Part shown: in pieces, positions 3,159 to 24,508 of the stretch | How positions within the stretch are numbered: position 1 is the stretch's first letter | How the letters are laid out: the number at the start of each line of letters is the position of its first letter | Source: a virus | Reading direction: 5' to 3' (one strand) | Virus record (IMG/VR): IMGVR_UViG_3300021171_000038 | Location: 1 to 30,031 of that record | DNA length: 30,031 nucleotides | Program-made: the position numbers and the translations under genes | The notes under the pieces: model-generated | Told to the model about the DNA's origin: nothing | What the model saw: the letters and a program-made list of their open reading frames with translations, nothing else | The model's database searches: none

Positions 3159-3421
3159 TCGACGAGCGGGCGCTGTTCATCCTGCAGCTGCAGCACAACG
3201 CCGCCCAGCGCGGCGTGCTCGCCTTCTGGACCGTCTACGACCATCCCAAGGACTATCCGCATGGGTTCTGCGCCCGGAGGCACGATGTGCCCGGCGGCCC
3301 GCAGGATTGCTATCTGATGGCGCCCTTGGAGGAGCTGCGCAGCGTTTTCGAGGGCGCCGGGCTCCATTGCCTGCCGCGCGCCGAGGGCGACGACTCGAAG
3401 ATCGTTGAAACCTGGATTTGA
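3155..3421 (+). CDS. small conserved-type phage protein ending in VETWI
   Basis: An 88-residue protein with GTG start overlapping the previous TGA. It has the arrangement (A)FWTVYDHPKDYPHGFCARRH, then an LEELR segment, and ends DDSKIVETWI. From general familiarity this resembles a common small protein of unknown function in phages, with a conserved 'hPkDyP...RR...E.WI' layout. No catalytic residues can be assigned. A start further upstream in the same frame would overlap the HTH gene extensively and is rejected. Confidence 0.7.
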   Translation: MIDERALFILQLQHNAAQRGVLAFWTVYDHPKDYPHGFCARRHDVPGGPQDCYLMAPLEELRSVFEGAGLHCLPRAEGDDSKIVETWI

Positions 3422-3434
3422 GGGAGGAAAAGCC

Positions 3435-3677
3435 ATGAAAGCCGTGGTCGAACTGACCCCGCCGATCAAAAAAGTGCGCAAGCCGTGCGACATGACCCTC
3501 GCCGAACTCAGGGCCGAGGTCAAACAGCTTAAGCGCGAGCTAAAAATGGCGCGCGAGGGCTTGAAGGGCATGCTCAAGACGATGCGCCAAATGGAGCGCG
3601 AGACGCTCTGGATGATGGAGCATTGCGAGTTCAGGACTTGCATCCCAACGCGGGCCGAGGCGATGGCGCGTGATTAG
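3435..3677 (+). CDS. coiled-coil small protein
   Basis: An 80-residue protein preceded by a good Shine-Dalgarno, AGGGAGGAAA at 3421-3430. Residues 20-60 form a coiled coil (MTLAELRAEVKQLKRELKMA; REGLKGMLKTMRQMERETLW). It is Met-rich near the end. No family is recognised. It overlaps the following mini membrane protein gene by eight bases. Confidence 0.7.
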   Translation: MKAVVELTPPIKKVRKPCDMTLAELRAEVKQLKRELKMAREGLKGMLKTMRQMERETLWMMEHCEFRTCIPTRAEAMARD

Positions 3678-3837
3678 CAACCTCGCCATCGCGGCGCTCA
3701 TCAGTATTCTGATGATCAGCTCGTATCTCTGGGGCTACCGCGACGGCGTCAAGTATTGCGCGCGGCAAATGCGGCCCTTGGCCGAGCAGGCGAAGCAAAT
3801 GGCCGACGCGCTCAGGGATCGGCATGACTCCGCTTGA
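3670..3837 (+). CDS. small membrane protein
   Basis: A 55-residue protein starting at GTG: VISNLAIAALISILMISSYL, then WGYRDGVKYCARQMRP and a charged helical tail. A single N-terminal transmembrane helix of about 18 residues would anchor a cytoplasmic or periplasmic tail of about 30 residues. The size and topology recall small i-spanin-like or anchor proteins, but no lipobox partner is next to it. It overlaps its neighbours at both ends, by 8 bases upstream and 14 downstream. Confidence 0.55.
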   Translation: MISNLAIAALISILMISSYLWGYRDGVKYCARQMRPLAEQAKQMADALRDRHDSA

Positions 3838-4354
3838 GGCCGCCGCGGTCGAGTTGGAGGAGCCCGACTGGCGTGAGCGTTTCGAGACGCATTGCGCCCG
3901 CTGGCCGAAACTACCCCGATACCTTCAGGAAGACGCCGCGTTCGAAAGTACCATGCGTGACTACCGGCGCTTTCACTTCAGCTGGGTCGAGGGCAAGCAG
4001 ATCCCGCTGGCTGCGGATCCGGCCAAGATCGCGCTCGCCAAGCTCGGGATCTTTCCGCCGCGCTTTACCATCAAGGATGTGCTGCGCGATGGCGTGAGCG
4101 GCTTTCAGTGTGACGATCATATGTGGGTCGGCCCTTGGCGCATCGTCGCGGTCGAGGACCGCACGCTATGCCTAGAAAAATATATGGAGATCGAGGGCAA
4201 GCCGGAAACGCGCCAGATCGATCTCACCCAGGCGGATTGGGCGAAATACACCGCGAGCGCGGTCGCGGCGTTGGCGGCGAGGAGCGAGCATGAGCGAGGT
4301 GCGCAAGGTTTGGATGGAAATGGAGGCGGCGGCGCTCGGGGAGGTGCGGACTGA
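3824..4354 (+). CDS. hypothetical phage protein (176 aa)
   Basis: A 176-residue protein. The central part (FTIKDVLRDGVSGFQCDDHM, then WVGPWRIVAVEDRTLCLEKY) looks like a small beta-barrel domain; the N-terminal 60 residues are helical and tryptophan-rich. The C-terminus becomes Gly-rich low complexity (GNGGGGARGGAD) exactly where it overlaps the next gene for 65 bases, so that tail may be a by-product of the overlap. No family recognised. Confidence 0.7.
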   Translation: MTPLEAAAVELEEPDWRERFETHCARWPKLPRYLQEDAAFESTMRDYRRFHFSWVEGKQIPLAADPAKIALAKLGIFPPRFTIKDVLRDGVSGFQCDDHMWVGPWRIVAVEDRTLCLEKYMEIEGKPETRQIDLTQADWAKYTASAVAALAARSEHERGAQGLDGNGGGGARGGAD

Positions 4355-7529: not shown

Positions 7530-7898
7530 ATGCATGAGTATGACGGACCTCCAATCAATTGGAAGGATCGGACCATGGCCATCAAACGCACCACCTCCAC
7601 CACAATCTCCCGCACCCCGCCGCCGTTGCCCGCTGACGAACCGCCCCAGCGGTTAGGCGGTCGATTGCCCAGCGGCGAAGACAATCGTTGGCCCGACGTC
7701 GGGGTCGAGGAGGTCGAGCCCGGGGCGCCCGCGCAAGGCGAAGTGATCCCGGTCGGCGTCGAGCAACTCCAGCGCTCGCAAGAGATGCAGGCGATGGGAG
7801 TCCATAACTGGGTCGCCGCGCATGACGAGCGCAACCCCGATTATCAACAGCAGGCGGTCGAAGGCGTCTCGCCGACGATGATCGATTATGGTCGATGA
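7530..7898 (+). CDS. Pro-rich hypothetical protein
   Basis: A 122-residue protein with a disordered Thr/Pro-rich N-terminus (TTSTTISRTPPPLPADEPPQ) and a more ordered C-terminal part (AMGVHNWVAAHDERNPDYQQ). GAAGG lies upstream of ATG 7530; a second ATG at 7575 has a better Shine-Dalgarno (GGAAGGAT) and would remove 15 residues. Its end overlaps the next gene by 11 bases. The style of sequence is like the Pro/Ala-rich virion proteins of the minus-strand late module. Confidence 0.65.
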   Translation: MHEYDGPPINWKDRTMAIKRTTSTTISRTPPPLPADEPPQRLGGRLPSGEDNRWPDVGVEEVEPGAPAQGEVIPVGVEQLQRSQEMQAMGVHNWVAAHDERNPDYQQQAVEGVSPTMIDYGR

Positions 7899-9051
7899 CG
7901 CTTGGCAGACTCGGATCCCGCAAGGTTGGATCCGCTATCCTGACGGGACTATAGGGCCGCCGAACCAAGTCGGCAGCGACTGGAACGCGCCCTACCGCCC
8001 AGCTCCTGGCGTCACCATCCCGCAATCGCCTGGGGCCCCGACGCCTGGCGGCGGCCTGACCCCGACCGGCGCTGGCTCCAGCGGCACGATGCTGCCAGGC
8101 AGCGGCGTCCTGCCCCGCTCGGCCAGCGCGGGCGCGCCAACGATGGGCTACCCGGCGATGGGCGGCTCCAGCCTCAACACCACCGGACCGCAGGTCTTCC
8201 CGCCCAACCAACGTCCGATCGCCCCGAACAAACAGGTCGGACGGTTCACCGGCGGCACTTCGACCGACAACACCTTTGAAGCTGGCAAGCCGATGGGCGC
8301 CGCAGCCGCGGGCGGCGCTTTCCCATCCTGGCTTAGCGGCGGCAACCTCAATCCCTGGGCGCGCGCCGCGATCACGGGCGCTGGCGTGATGGCGCCGACT
8401 CCGACCGCCAATGACGCGGCGCCGACCAACGCATGGTTCCAGCGTCCGAGCGGCGTCGGCGGCATGCCAGGGCCGCAGGTGACCAACCCGACGCCTGGAC
8501 CCGCGCCGCCCGGCGTCGGCGGTCCCTACGTCGGCGGCCAGGGCGCTCCACCGCGGCCCGTAGCGTCAGCGCCTCCTGGCGCGCCCAGCCCAGCGCCCGC
8601 GGCGGCTCCGGTTGCGCCCCCTCCCGGCGTCACTCCGCCGCCGATCAATGGGCGGGTCAACCCGGCCTCGGTCAACCTCGGCAACAATCCCTGGATCACG
8701 GCGAGTCGGCCCAACATGAGCCCGCAGAATAGCGCGCAAGGCCGCCAGGGCGCGCCGCAGATGGGCATGCTCGATCTCTCGCGGCTGTTTGGCGGCGGTC
8801 AGCCCGCGGCTCCAGCTGCAGCGCCAGCGCCAGCGATCGGCTCGCCAGCGCCCGCCGTGCCTCCGGTTCGCCCGCGGGGCGCCTTGGCTTCACCGACGCC
8901 GCCGTCAGGACCGATGGATCCGAGCATCATCGCTCATCAAAACGCCGCCGGGGCCGGACCGATGGACCCGAGCATCCTCGCTTGGTCGAGACGACTGCAG
9001 CCGGGCTACAACGGGCCTGACGCGCTCACGCCGATAGGACTAACCCAATGA
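7888..9051 (+). CDS. large Pro/Gly/Ala-rich low-complexity protein
   Basis: A 387-residue protein. A short ordered N-terminus with aromatic residues (AWQTRIPQGWIRYPDGTIGP) is followed by some 330 residues dominated by Pro, Gly, Ala and Asn with no catalytic motif. Near the end the motif GPMDPSI occurs twice, at bases 8908-8928 and 8956-8976, which are 20/21 identical. There is no signal peptide or transmembrane helix. Candidate roles are a virion-associated spacer or an injected disordered protein, by resemblance to the Pro-rich proteins of the late module; yet it is encoded on the early strand behind the replication gene. It shares ATGA with the Ig-like gene, suggesting co-expression with it. 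Confidence 0.75.
   Translation: MVDDAWQTRIPQGWIRYPDGTIGPPNQVGSDWNAPYRPAPGVTIPQSPGAPTPGGGLTPTGAGSSGTMLPGSGVLPRSASAGAPTMGYPAMGGSSLNTTGPQVFPPNQRPIAPNKQVGRFTGGTSTDNTFEAGKPMGAAAAGGAFPSWLSGGNLNPWARAAITGAGVMAPTPTANDAAPTNAWFQRPSGVGGMPGPQVTNPTPGPAPPGVGGPYVGGQGAPPRPVASAPPGAPSPAPAAAPVAPPPGVTPPPINGRVNPASVNLGNNPWITASRPNMSPQNSAQGRQGAPQMGMLDLSRLFGGGQPAAPAAAPAPAIGSPAPAVPPVRPRGALASPTPPSGPMDPSIIAHQNAAGAGPMDPSILAWSRRLQPGYNGPDALTPIGLTQ
8908..8976 (+). repeat. short direct repeat coding GPMDPSI
   Basis: GGACCGATGGATCCGAGCAT (8908) recurs at 8956 with a single change (GATCC to GACCC) 48 bases downstream, in the same frame. Both copies code for Gly-Pro-Met-Asp-Pro-Ser-Ile. The near identity at the DNA level suggests a recent internal duplication near the C-terminal end of the Pro-rich protein. 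Confidence 0.7.
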
Positions 9052-9587
9052 TGGATCCCGTCACTTTCGCCGGTAAGCTCAACCTCATCGTTGGCTCTTA
9101 TCCGTTCTATGGCTCCATCGGGGCTGAGCTGCAGGCGATTGTCACTGCGCTCAATCCGGACCCGACGACCTGCGACATGACGATCCAGAACGCGCCGAGA
9201 GGTCTTCGCCCAGGCGTCAATGGGCAAACGCCGTTCGTAAACGAGGTGCTCTTGCTGATCAACCGCGGCAAGGCGGGCAATCTCGCCAATACGGTGATGG
9301 CCGATTTGATCGACAATGAACTGAGCGCGATCTTGCCGCCGGTCAACACCACGGCGCCGTTCGCCACCGGCACGACGACGCTTAGCGTCACCACCGGGAT
9401 CTGGCAAAACAGCCCAACCTCCTACACCTACCAATGGCTGCGCGGCGGGGCGAACATCGCCGGGGCGACCGCAGCGACCTATGTGACGGTTGGCGCCGAT
9501 GCGGGAACGAATGTTTCTTGCCGGGTGACCGCGCATAATGGCGCAGGTTCGGCCCCGGCGACCTCCAACGCAATCGCGGTGGCGTGA
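9048..9587 (+). CDS. Ig-like domain phage protein
   Basis: A 179-residue protein. Residues 1-95 are an unrecognised domain (FAGKLNLIVGSYPFYGSIGA; LLINRGKAGNLANTVMADL). Residues 97-179 form an immunoglobulin-like beta-sandwich of the kind fused to phage virion proteins: YTYQWLRGGANIAGATAATY, then DAGTNVSCRVTAHNGAGSA. Such domains usually sit on capsid or tail surfaces and bind host-surface carbohydrates or mucus weakly. Here it is encoded on the early strand, next to the Pro-rich protein, so it may be a decoration protein or a secreted or surface adhesin. No signal peptide is visible. The start is the ATG that overlaps the preceding stop. Confidence 0.8.
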   Translation: MMDPVTFAGKLNLIVGSYPFYGSIGAELQAIVTALNPDPTTCDMTIQNAPRGLRPGVNGQTPFVNEVLLLINRGKAGNLANTVMADLIDNELSAILPPVNTTAPFATGTTTLSVTTGIWQNSPTSYTYQWLRGGANIAGATAATYVTVGADAGTNVSCRVTAHNGAGSAPATSNAIAVA

Positions 9588-18946: not shown

Positions 18947-19591
18947 ATGAATAAGCTTCTTCTATCAGCGGCGCTGCTCGCGGCGCTCGCGAGTCCGGCG
19001 CGGGCGACGTTGCAAATCGAGGTGTTCGATAACGGCGCGCTGATCGACAACGTCACCGGGATCACCACCGGCGCGGCCAGCCTCACCGCCAACGACGCCA
19101 ATTTCGCCAACATCACCATCGCCGCGCAGGGGAGCCCGATCCTGCCCAACGCCGACCTTTCCAGCGTCACCCTCGACGCCAGCGCCGCGGCCGGCTTCAC
19201 CGGCTCGCACACGTTGACGGTCGATATCCTGCAAAGCGCCATCGACGGGCGCGGGAACACGCTCAGCACGTTTACGGTCAACGGGCTCACCAACGACCCC
19301 GGCCCGACCACCGAGTCGACCTTCGCCGATGGCGGATTGCTCGCTTCGCACACCTTCCCGGTGGCGCTGCTCGACGGTTCCGCGGGTCCATTCTCGACGG
19401 CGACCGGGCCGTTCACCTCGGACGAAACGCAGTTCGCGATCGACTTCACCGCGCCGCGGCAGTCGTTCGGCGGCTCGATCCAGTTGACCACCGGCGTGCC
19501 CGAGCCCTCGACCTGGGCGCTGATGCTGCTAGGCTTTGGTCTGCTTGGCTTTGTGGGCGTTCGTTCACGGGCCAGCCGGATTGCCGTTTAA
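18947..19591 (+). CDS. PEP-CTERM (PEPxxWA) sorted secreted protein encoded in phage
   Basis: A 214-residue protein behind a strong Shine-Dalgarno (TTTAGGAGGGTGAC). Residues 1-21 are a Sec signal peptide (MNKLLLSAALLAALASPARA, then T). Residues 23-183 are a Ser/Thr/Asn/Ala/Gly-rich beta-type extracellular domain, low in charge and lacking cysteine. The C-terminus (184-214) is a textbook PEP-CTERM signal: VPEPSTW, then a hydrophobic helix ALMLLGFGLLGFVGV, then RSRASR. In this system exosortase in the inner membrane processes the PEP motif and the protein is delivered to the envelope or exopolysaccharide. No exosortase is in the window, so the phage protein would depend on the host's enzyme. It stands alone between two hairpins, codirectional with early genes and convergent with the late genes: a moron-like cargo gene. 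Confidence 0.88.
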   Translation: MNKLLLSAALLAALASPARATLQIEVFDNGALIDNVTGITTGAASLTANDANFANITIAAQGSPILPNADLSSVTLDASAAAGFTGSHTLTVDILQSAIDGRGNTLSTFTVNGLTNDPGPTTESTFADGGLLASHTFPVALLDGSAGPFSTATGPFTSDETQFAIDFTAPRQSFGGSIQLTTGVPEPSTWALMLLGFGLLGFVGVRSRASRIAV

Positions 19592-22558: not shown

Positions 22559-23175
22559 GCCGTCGCTCCCTTGGCCGCCTGCAGCTGGTTCAGGGTGTTG
22601 AAGAAGGTCGCATTGTTATAGCCGCCCGCCCCTGTAGAACCGCCCTGCGGGTGGGCGGCCAGGAAGGCGGCCAGGACCGAGGGCTGGGGCGCCCCGGTCT
22701 GGGCCGCGCCCGGCTGCATCGCCGCCCCCGGCGTCGTCACCTTGCCGGGGTTGGCGAGCGCCTGCAAATAGGCCTGGCGCGCATTGGCGGCGTTGTCTGG
22801 CGCCGCCGCCGCCGGGACCGGATTGACCGCCTGTGCGCCCGGCGTGAAGGCGGGATCCGTCCCGCCGAAGGCGGGACCGGGCCCCGATCCACCGGGGTTC
22901 ATGCCGTAGAAGAGGCTGTTGACCGGGCTGGGCGTCGCGGCGCCGCTGTTCAGCGTCGTGCCCGGCGCCGCGGGCGCTGGATTAGCGGCGTTGAGCCCGG
23001 CCAGGAGCCCTGGATAGCTGGCGATCGGCTGGCCGGTGGCGGCGTTGACCGGCGCGCCGGCATAACCGGCCATCGGGATCTGGCCGGTGAATTCGAGATA
23101 GGGGTTCGGGTTGGTCAGCCCCTGGATCCCCATGACATTCATCATGTCCGCGGCGGGATCGTCGTTGCTAGCCAT
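22555..23175 (-). CDS. Pro/Ala-rich probable virion protein (206 aa)
   Basis: A 206-residue protein rich in Ala, Pro, Gly and Asn (ASNDDPAADMMNVMGIQGLT; APGTTLNSGAATPSPVNSLF). The last 35 residues are more ordered (GGYNNATFFNTLNQLQAAKG). The start overlaps the lysozyme-like gene's stop by eight bases, ATGGCTAG, the same geometry as the two junctions upstream. Its internal APGTTLNSG echoes the PGTTxNSVP start of the two hydrolases upstream. No function can be assigned. Confidence 0.65.
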   Translation of the reverse strand: MASNDDPAADMMNVMGIQGLTNPNPYLEFTGQIPMAGYAGAPVNAATGQPIASYPGLLAGLNAANPAPAAPGTTLNSGAATPSPVNSLFYGMNPGGSGPGPAFGGTDPAFTPGAQAVNPVPAAAAPDNAANARQAYLQALANPGKVTTPGAAMQPGAAQTGAPQPSVLAAFLAAHPQGGSTGAGGYNNATFFNTLNQLQAAKGATA

Positions 23176-23959
23176 AGAGGCCTCCCGTGGAAGTCAAGGT
23201 GGTGCCAGGCGTCGTGGTCGGATCGGCCATCGGCAGCAATTGGCCGCCCGGACCGTAGGCTAGATGGGTGCCGACCTGCTGCGGGCCTCTCGGCTGCTGC
23301 ATTGCGCGCTGTTGATAGGCGGCCATCATTTGTTGCGCTTGGTTGGCGATCTGCGCCTGGCGCATCGCGCCGGGGCCGAAGCCCGCCGCCATCTGGCCTT
23401 GGAGATCGGCTTGGCCGGGCGGCGCGTTCTGCGCCGATCCGCCCGCGCCCGCGCCGCCGCCGAGCGTCTTCTGCAGGTCTTGGATCGGGCTCGGCCCCTG
23501 GCCGGCGTCGCCCGAGCCCGCGGTCAGCGAGGCGATCGCCGCCCCGACGCCGGTCGGCTTGGCCGCAGGAGGCGCGCCCGACGTGGCTGGAGTCGAGCCG
23601 CCGAGAAAAGACTTGTAAGCCCCGCTCTTATAGGTCGTCCAAGCATTAAGCCCTTCACTCCTGTAAATTTGGGCGGCCAGCGCCGCTTGCTGATCGAGCG
23701 GCAGGCTGGCGACCTTCGCGCCGCCCATCTGCGGATGAGCGGCGTCGTTGATCTGGAAGACTCCCCAATCGCGACTGCCGTTCTTGTTGGGAGGGCTGAC
23801 CGGATTGGCGCCGAAACGACTTTCCGCACCGCTGACCGCAGTCAAAGTCGGAACGACGCTCGCCGGAACGCCAGCGCGGATAAGCGCCGAAGCGATATCG
23901 GATGACGAATAAACGCCGGTCGGCACAGAGTTCGCAGTCGTGCCAGGGGTGTTAGCCAC
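23168..23959 (-). CDS. lysozyme-like lytic transglycosylase (virion-associated)
   Basis: A 263-residue protein starting at GTG. Residues 21-115 are a lysozyme/SLT-like domain: LTAVSGAESRFGANPVSP with E46 as the candidate catalytic glutamate, then SRDWGVFQINDAAHPQMGG, the G-x-x-Q-I-N loop, and YRSEGLNAWTTYKSGAYKSF. It would cleave the glycan strands of peptidoglycan. The rest is Gln/Ala/Gly/Pro-rich and disordered (QAQQMMAAYQQRAMQQPRGP), as in virion proteins that drill the wall on entry. The first 13 residues (MANTPGTTANSVP) closely match those of the preceding hydrolase. It is not a lysis endolysin by position: no holin is nearby. Confidence 0.85.
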   Translation of the reverse strand: MANTPGTTANSVPTGVYSSSDIASALIRAGVPASVVPTLTAVSGAESRFGANPVSPPNKNGSRDWGVFQINDAAHPQMGGAKVASLPLDQQAALAAQIYRSEGLNAWTTYKSGAYKSFLGGSTPATSGAPPAAKPTGVGAAIASLTAGSGDAGQGPSPIQDLQKTLGGGAGAGGSAQNAPPGQADLQGQMAAGFGPGAMRQAQIANQAQQMMAAYQQRAMQQPRGPQQVGTHLAYGPGGQLLPMADPTTTPGTTLTSTGGLYG

Positions 23960-23973
23960 TCATCGCCCCTATG
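23930..23973 (-). repeat. imperfect direct repeat, copy B (downstream side of SleB gene)
   Basis: Minus-strand TAGGGGCG, then GTGGCT, AC, CCCTGG and CAC/AAC positions match the copy at 24465-24508, roughly 70 percent by hand alignment over about 44 bases. It covers the end of the SleB-like gene and the first codons of the lysozyme-like gene. The two copies are 535 bases apart and bracket exactly one gene. Confidence 0.6.
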
Positions 23974-24494
23974 TCTTGGTAACCGCCGGTCACCTGATTG
24001 GGGATGGCCTGGCCCGGCCCCATCGAACCGCCAACGAAGATCTGACTCCCGACCTTGACCGAATTCTGAGCCGCCAGCGGACCGGCCCAAGGCGGCGGGC
24101 GGCCGGTCGCCATGCTGCGCGGCGCGTAATAATGGGTCGCGCCGTTGGTCGGGTCGGGGATCTGGCCGCTGTAAACCTGATCGACCAGATTGCCGAGCTG
24201 AGTGTAATTGGGGATCTGAGAAGGCGGCGCGGTGACCAGCTTGCTGGCTTCCTTGCCATGCGCGAACCCGGTCACCCCATTCCAACTTGAAAATTCACCG
24301 GGCTTCTGGATGACGCCGGCAACGCCTTGACCGTAGCCGCCATCGGCCACCCGGTTGAGGATGGTGTGCGCGACCGCCGCTTGACCCGCAGGCGGTTCGC
24401 CGCCCGCTTCGGCGGCCAAGGTCCGAACCATGACGTCGCGATCCTTCGGATCCATCGGGACGCTGTTGATCGTGGTTCCAGGGACGTCAGCCAC
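23952..24494 (-). CDS. SleB-type cell-wall hydrolase (Hydrolase_2 family)
   Basis: A 180-residue protein starting at GTG. The SleB/CwlJ core covers residues 18-140: DRDVMVRTLAAEAGGEPPAG with E29 as the candidate catalytic acid, then QAAVAHTILNRVADGGYGQG, the FSSWN box, and ATHYYAPRSM with PPWA. Family members cleave peptidoglycan (lytic transglycosylase or amidase-type, depending on the member). The N-terminal tag (MADVPGTTINSVP) repeats in the next gene, which is a different enzyme. It lies in the virion module, so use during entry is more likely than host lysis. The end overlaps the next gene by eight bases. Confidence 0.87.
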   Translation of the reverse strand: MADVPGTTINSVPMDPKDRDVMVRTLAAEAGGEPPAGQAAVAHTILNRVADGGYGQGVAGVIQKPGEFSSWNGVTGFAHGKEASKLVTAPPSQIPNYTQLGNLVDQVYSGQIPDPTNGATHYYAPRSMATGRPPPWAGPLAAQNSVKVGSQIFVGGSMGPGQAIPNQVTGGYQDIGAMSG

Positions 24495-24508
24495 CGAGCG
24501 CCCCTACG
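24465..24508 (-). repeat. imperfect direct repeat, copy A (upstream side of SleB gene)
   Basis: Minus-strand TAGGGGCG, GTGGCTGAC, CCCTGG and following bases recur at 23930-23973. Copy A spans the end of the S74-like gene (GALGG stop) and the first codons of the SleB gene (MADVPGTTINS). Confidence 0.6.

Follow-up and report, generated by a model that had tools for sequence, protein, structure and literature searches.

Ejection Enzymes and Packaging Signals

In ejection proteins of the T7 gp16/gp15 type, a wall-hydrolase domain is found at the N-terminus, and swaps of such domains between the ejection proteins of related phages have been described for K1E and K1-5 (Swanson et al. 2022, PMC8954989). 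In the literature, ejection proteins count as mosaic. A second kind of described system is the capsid targeting sequence (CTS) of phage T4, an encapsidation signal that is the only conserved part of the diverse internal proteins of T-even phages (PMC3012670). Among phage hydrolases of the SleB/Hydrolase_2 family (PF07486), those of Agrobacterium and Rhizobium phages carry the annotation “endolysin”. Annotated phages have, after an S74-type ejection gene, a gene for an internal virion protein of the lysozyme type; a gene for a small protein comes next in some of them, and then genes for larger products labeled “hypothetical” or “DNA injection protein”.

The DNA analyzed here, a virus record of 30,031 nucleotides that is referred to as the window, carries its structural genes on the minus strand. 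Between an ejection gene (ej) and a gene for a lysozyme-like protein lies a SleB-type hydrolase gene, and the short peptide PGTTxNS recurs in both enzymes and in the neighboring protein p4. As in the T7 gp16/gp15 type, the putative wall-cutting domain is N-terminal and appears to be movable among ejection proteins; unlike in gp16, the change extends to a separate gene, several enzyme classes are found in the slot, and a short motif accompanies them. Modular ejection enzymes are the known kind of system to which this locus belongs, here with a group-specific motif. PGTTxNS resembles the T4 CTS in being one short conserved peptide on diverse proteins, but it is a putative tag only, is specific to a phage group, and is found internally (in p4) and at the C-termini of slot proteins as well. 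Because it is not confined to N-termini in the manner of a CTS-type signal, PGTTxNS is, judged by its positions, not a classical N-terminal targeting tag.

The window SleB is like the annotated endolysins in its full-length family match and differs from them in lying in an ejection operon, in being coupled by an overlap to ej, and in carrying the motif of this phage group. The Ochrobactrum phage vB_OspP_OH and the spring-water phages MW202496 and MW202711 share the S74-type ejection gene followed by a lysozyme-type internal protein; they differ in an ejection protein that is only 33-39% identical and in having no SleB, and PGTTxNS was absent from the slot proteins read out from these phages. 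In MW202711, a “reductase” gene is found at the same place instead of SleB.

The Enzyme Slot of the Ejection Operon

On the minus strand, the genes follow each other in the order ej (25848-24487), SleB (24494-23952), lysozyme (23959-23168), p4 (23175-22555), p5, and p6. The ej product, which ends in ..GALGG*, is of the DNA-ejection type and carries an S74 chaperone domain at its C-terminus; it matched phrog_4287 “DNA ejection protein” in a PHROGs search (E 1.3e-31), and its Peptidase_S74 domain was found at E 8.7e-5. The SleB product (180 aa) matches PF07486 Hydrolase_2 over residues 32-153 (E 1.4e-15), with 58.1 bits against a cut-off of 27 and with profile positions 1-99 of 100 covered, and by this full-domain match it is a putative cell-wall hydrolase. 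The lysozyme-like slot protein (263 aa) matches SLT_3 (PF18896) over residues 27-109 (E 5.5e-8), with 33.6 bits against a cut-off of 27, and a PHROGs search returned a weak transglycosylase match (E 0.065). The initial annotation had called the two enzymes unrelated, and their different domains, Hydrolase_2/SleB and SLT_3, bear this out. The small ejection-cluster protein p4 was recognized by its synteny in relatives and by an alignment of 13 homologues, the others being 29-82% identical to that of the window.

An S74-type ejection gene, a lysozyme-type internal protein, a small protein, and large injection-type proteins together make up the gene order of a podovirus ejection cluster, and an annotated relative has ej, an “internal virion protein”, small and hypothetical proteins, and then a “DNA injection protein”. 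By its sequence, the locus is assigned to the ejection operon of a short-tailed phage (ej, slot enzyme, p4, p5, p6), in which it forms the slot for cell-wall enzymes. Searches with ej, p4, and the slot protein yielded some twenty relatives with this block, almost all of which have a single slot gene between ej and p4. The enzymes in this slot vary from relative to relative and include SLT, SLT_3, VanY or M15 peptidase with a lysozyme domain, and Amidase_2 with Transglycosylas. A DNA-level search of the phage collection and a tblastn search with the lysozyme there gave no match.

Gain of the SleB Gene

When the same locus was compared in relatives, a check that the initial annotation had proposed, the bracketed gene was found to be absent from L153, L154, L011, L022, and L156. 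In L153 and L154, ej is directly followed by one gene with the lysozyme domain of the window (SLT_3), without SleB, and these close relatives represent the unoccupied site; the best segment shared by the window lysozyme and their single slot gene is 53-54% identical. A single slot gene, coding for a different lysozyme-type domain, is present in L011, L022, and L156, again without SleB. In the ej tree, the window lies inside the SleB-less group, where L011 and L012 are its neighbors (98/96); in L012, the slot gene is truncated by the end of the contig. Since the closest relatives are without SleB and the window is nested among them, SleB was most likely gained in the lineage of the window, between ej and the resident lysozyme gene.

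A different SleB gene is found between ej and the slot gene of L166, whose ej groups with those of L025 and L027 (99/96). To account for the two SleB genes found in the slot, the SleB tree needs two changes; on these trees, the SleB of L166 is a second, independent gain at the same place, two gains being a small sample.

SleB and the lysozyme could instead descend from a single slot protein with two domains, comparable to the fused VanY and SLT of some relatives, that was broken in two when a new stop and a new start arose. We regard such an origin as quite improbable. Fused relatives do carry the motif just before their second domain, as the window lysozyme does, but the closest relatives (the five named above) all have a single-enzyme slot gene and disfavor such a split. 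Moreover, the lysozyme start is the canonical slot start, with PTGVYSSS aligning to STGVYQPS of L154, and the C-terminus of SleB is like that of SleB proteins elsewhere. No near relative with SleB fused to an SLT_3 domain was found.

The Repeat and the Junctions

The SleB ORF begins MADVPGTTINSVP and the lysozyme ORF begins MANTPGTTANSVP, and the two starts (24494 and 23959, both on the minus strand) are spaced 535 bases apart. An ungapped match from -12 to +39 around each GTG has 36 of 52 positions identical and a score of 20, which 2 of 200,000 random GTG-anchored pairs on the same strand reached; no other pair among eight gene starts scores above 9. The near-identity of the first codons, and the continuation of the match upstream into the ends of the preceding genes so that two copies at this spacing lie around SleB, had both been noted in the initial annotation and are confirmed by this comparison. 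A general repeat finder did not have this repeat among its 20 largest families. Chance composition, as the source of the repeat or of the motif, was ruled out by the random pairs, by shuffles, and by a reversed-pattern control.

The repeat is made up of two parts, namely upstream translation signals and a PGTTxNS protein motif. The upstream half can be read as a ribosome-binding stretch with an 8-base start/stop overlap behind it. At the first junction (24487..24505, minus strand), the AGGGGCG ribosome-binding stretch is followed by an N4 spacer and the 8-base overlap GTGGCTGA, and at the second junction (23952..23970, minus strand), where the SleB stop and the lysozyme start overlap by 8 bases, by N4 and GTGGCTAA. 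In the window, AGGGGCG-N4-RTGGCTRA occurs at these two SleB-bracketing junctions only. It is also present at the ej/slot junction of L011, L012, L013, L015, L023, L026, and L149, and most other relatives have close variants of it there; L166 has the arrangement after its own SleB, before the slot gene (AGGGGCGTACAATGGCTGA). The end of ej and the start of the gene that follows are common to relatives, and the lysozyme gene and p4 overlap in the same way, by 8 bases (ATGGCTAG), with a different ribosome site. The end of the window SleB resembles the unlinked SleB of L003 (..DIGETMS*, GACATCGGGGAAACGATGAGTTGA) almost to the last codons. As the upstream half is common to many relatives and the SleB end is like that of an unlinked SleB, translation signals, together with the ends that belong to the genes themselves, account for this half of the repeat.

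Other ORFs were seen around the slot. In L015, an HNH-endonuclease-like ORF (8664-9092) lies between the slot gene and p4, also with an 8-base start/stop overlap. In the distant relatives L021 (7885-8574), L039, L041, L042, L048, L050, L051, and L065, a PAPS-reductase-like ORF (..FSGGKDSLACLYL..) is often the first after ej, which it usually overlaps or abuts, and additional genes in general seem to enter at this junction.

DNA Copy or Protein-Level Likeness

The downstream half of the repeat encodes PGTTINS in SleB (codons 5-11, 24462..24482, minus strand) and PGTTANS at the N-terminus of the lysozyme (23927..23947, minus strand). After the start codon, the two tags have nine residues in common, of which four are encoded by the same codon, against 3.7 expected from codon usage; the DNA identity beyond the need of the encoded amino acids that marks a recent recombination repeat was not found. 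Similarly, the six pairings of the four motif copies in the window have 13 identical codons, where about 13 are expected. Because codon agreement in the window is no higher than codon usage predicts, the likeness of the tags lies at the amino-acid level, kept by selection or very old, and a recent DNA duplication was rejected on this comparison. Over all genomes, motif copies share 82 codons, against 65 expected (sd 6), and two copies in L025 and in L027 are identical or nearly so; this modest codon excess indicates that some copying of the motif within genomes is likely.

These codon counts bear directly on the notion that SleB was gained recently by recombination between two DNA direct repeats, the tag being a by-product of the duplicated segment. 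It has in its favor that the repeat exceeds chance, that relatives show the site without SleB, and that the junction between SleB and the lysozyme gene resembles a duplicate of the one between ej and the slot gene. We nevertheless consider it unlikely: the tag codons agree only as usage predicts, the end of SleB (DIG..MS) matches SleB genes elsewhere, this junction and tag arose again in L166 beside a different SleB, and the same overlap is found at the lysozyme/p4 junction, where no gene was gained. The initial annotation had suggested gene gain or module swapping through recombination between repeats. Gene gain is upheld by the SleB-less L153 and L154 and by the second gain in L166, whereas the codons, the translation signals, and the SleB end speak against the recombination of DNA repeats.

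Distribution of the PGTTxNS Motif

The tag had originally been described as shared by two N-termini. That it is shared holds true, but it is not restricted to these termini: in the window, further copies lie at the C-terminus of the lysozyme (PGTTLTS, 23189..23209, minus strand; TTPGTTLTSTGGLYG) and inside p4 (PGTTLNS, in the context AAPGTTLNSG, 22945..22965, minus strand). The suggested search for the tag on other internal proteins thus found it on other proteins of the ejection cluster. In relatives, it is present in p4, at the C-termini of slot proteins, and elsewhere in slot proteins, where it often immediately precedes an enzymatic domain, as in L025, L026, L027, and the SleB of L166, whose version is PGTTLNT.

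Six-frame translations of eight contigs (~320 kb) contained 17 strict matches, 15 of them within SleB, slot, or p4. When 13 records were scanned with a DNA pattern, 19 matches were found, and 0 with the reversed control pattern. The 27 slot, SleB, and p4 proteins had 22 core matches, compared with 0.05 in shuffled sequences, where 2000 rounds never gave more than 2, the regular expressions having been picked after the motif had been seen. The motif is not a general feature of SleB, as only the two window copies and L166 were found to have it among the 79 SleB loci scanned. The N-termini of 15 other SleB proteins were also read out; no recognizable ej gene adjoins any of them, and all are without the motif. 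It is likewise missing from the SleB domains that start the first gene after ej in the much more distant viral or bacterial contigs L062, L084, and L111. The motif accompanies the slot rather than SleB as such, and since even SleB behind the distant ej genes of these three contigs is without it, it is a property of this phage group. A text search of the literature for PGTTLNS found no earlier description.

Versions of the motif outside the cluster are found in L027 (36275-37156) and in an early-region gene of L029. The L027 gene (minus strand of that contig, G008) ends PPGTTLNTPPNWSP and is the one strict match outside the ejection cluster there; toward the N-terminus, its product looks similar to that of a 603-residue ORF beside SleB in L173. 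In the window, the Pro/Gly-rich product of an early-strand gene (7888-9051, plus strand) has a 21-residue stretch, AAPTNxWxQRPSGVGGMPGPQ, in common with the N-terminus of the L166 SleB (3369-4091; 90%, E 2e-10), and it includes a weak version of the motif, GGSSLNTTGP.

The motif may be no more specific than a flexible linker between domains, prone to reuse and recognized by no partner. This is a possibility that we take seriously but would not favor. It fits the positions of the motif where structural models give no confident structure, and its frequent occurrence between two enzymatic domains (L025, L026, L027), in P/A/G/Q-rich sequence. On the other hand, sequence and not only composition is kept, with G and N of the p4 motif invariant in 13 homologues while synonymous codons are free, and SleB genes outside the slot have other linkers. 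The conservation of the p4 motif is 0.76, against an average of 0.54, a value equaled by about 20 other 7-column windows.

A Model for Enzyme Recruitment

The explanation that we consider probable is that SleB was inserted between ej and the lysozyme gene, that it is translated in a coupled manner, and that the motif has been kept at the protein level, most likely as a common adaptor segment, of which a linker would be the minimal version. SleB and the lysozyme would be made in step with their neighbors, through a ribosome site in the end of the upstream gene and the 8-base overlap. For the later steps, we infer that the ejection proteins are built into the virion during assembly and that, at infection, the slot enzymes would cut the wall for a DNA conduit, as described for T7 gp16 (PMC8954989), with SleB adding a second wall-cutting activity beside the lysozyme. 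As a common adaptor, PGTT-x-NS would allow unrelated enzymes to join, or be handled by, one ejection complex.

A more specific form of this idea, put forward tentatively, is that PGTT[LI]NS is a putative group-specific docking or packaging motif, and that any wall-cutting enzyme picking it up at the ej junction would be built into the ejection complex during its assembly. The structures that AlphaFold predicts for p4 and the lysozyme are of low confidence (mean pLDDT 48 and 51) and lend no support to docking. What draws attention to this reading is that one junction took up SleB twice, each newcomer with the peptide of its neighbors, and that SleB outside the slot is without it. If docking were true, this phage group would possess a plug-in system for changing its wall-breaching chemistry, and the peptide would offer a small, mutable handle on the recruitment of wall enzymes, comparable to the CTS for T4 heads.

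Apart from the ejection operon, an ORF on the plus strand of the window (18947-19591) has a signal-peptide-like start and a C-terminus, VPEPSTWALMLLGFGLLGFVGVRSRA, that resembles a PEP-CTERM sorting signal, which is unusual in a phage. A reverse-frame ORF in L011 (12027-12659) suggests a homologue.
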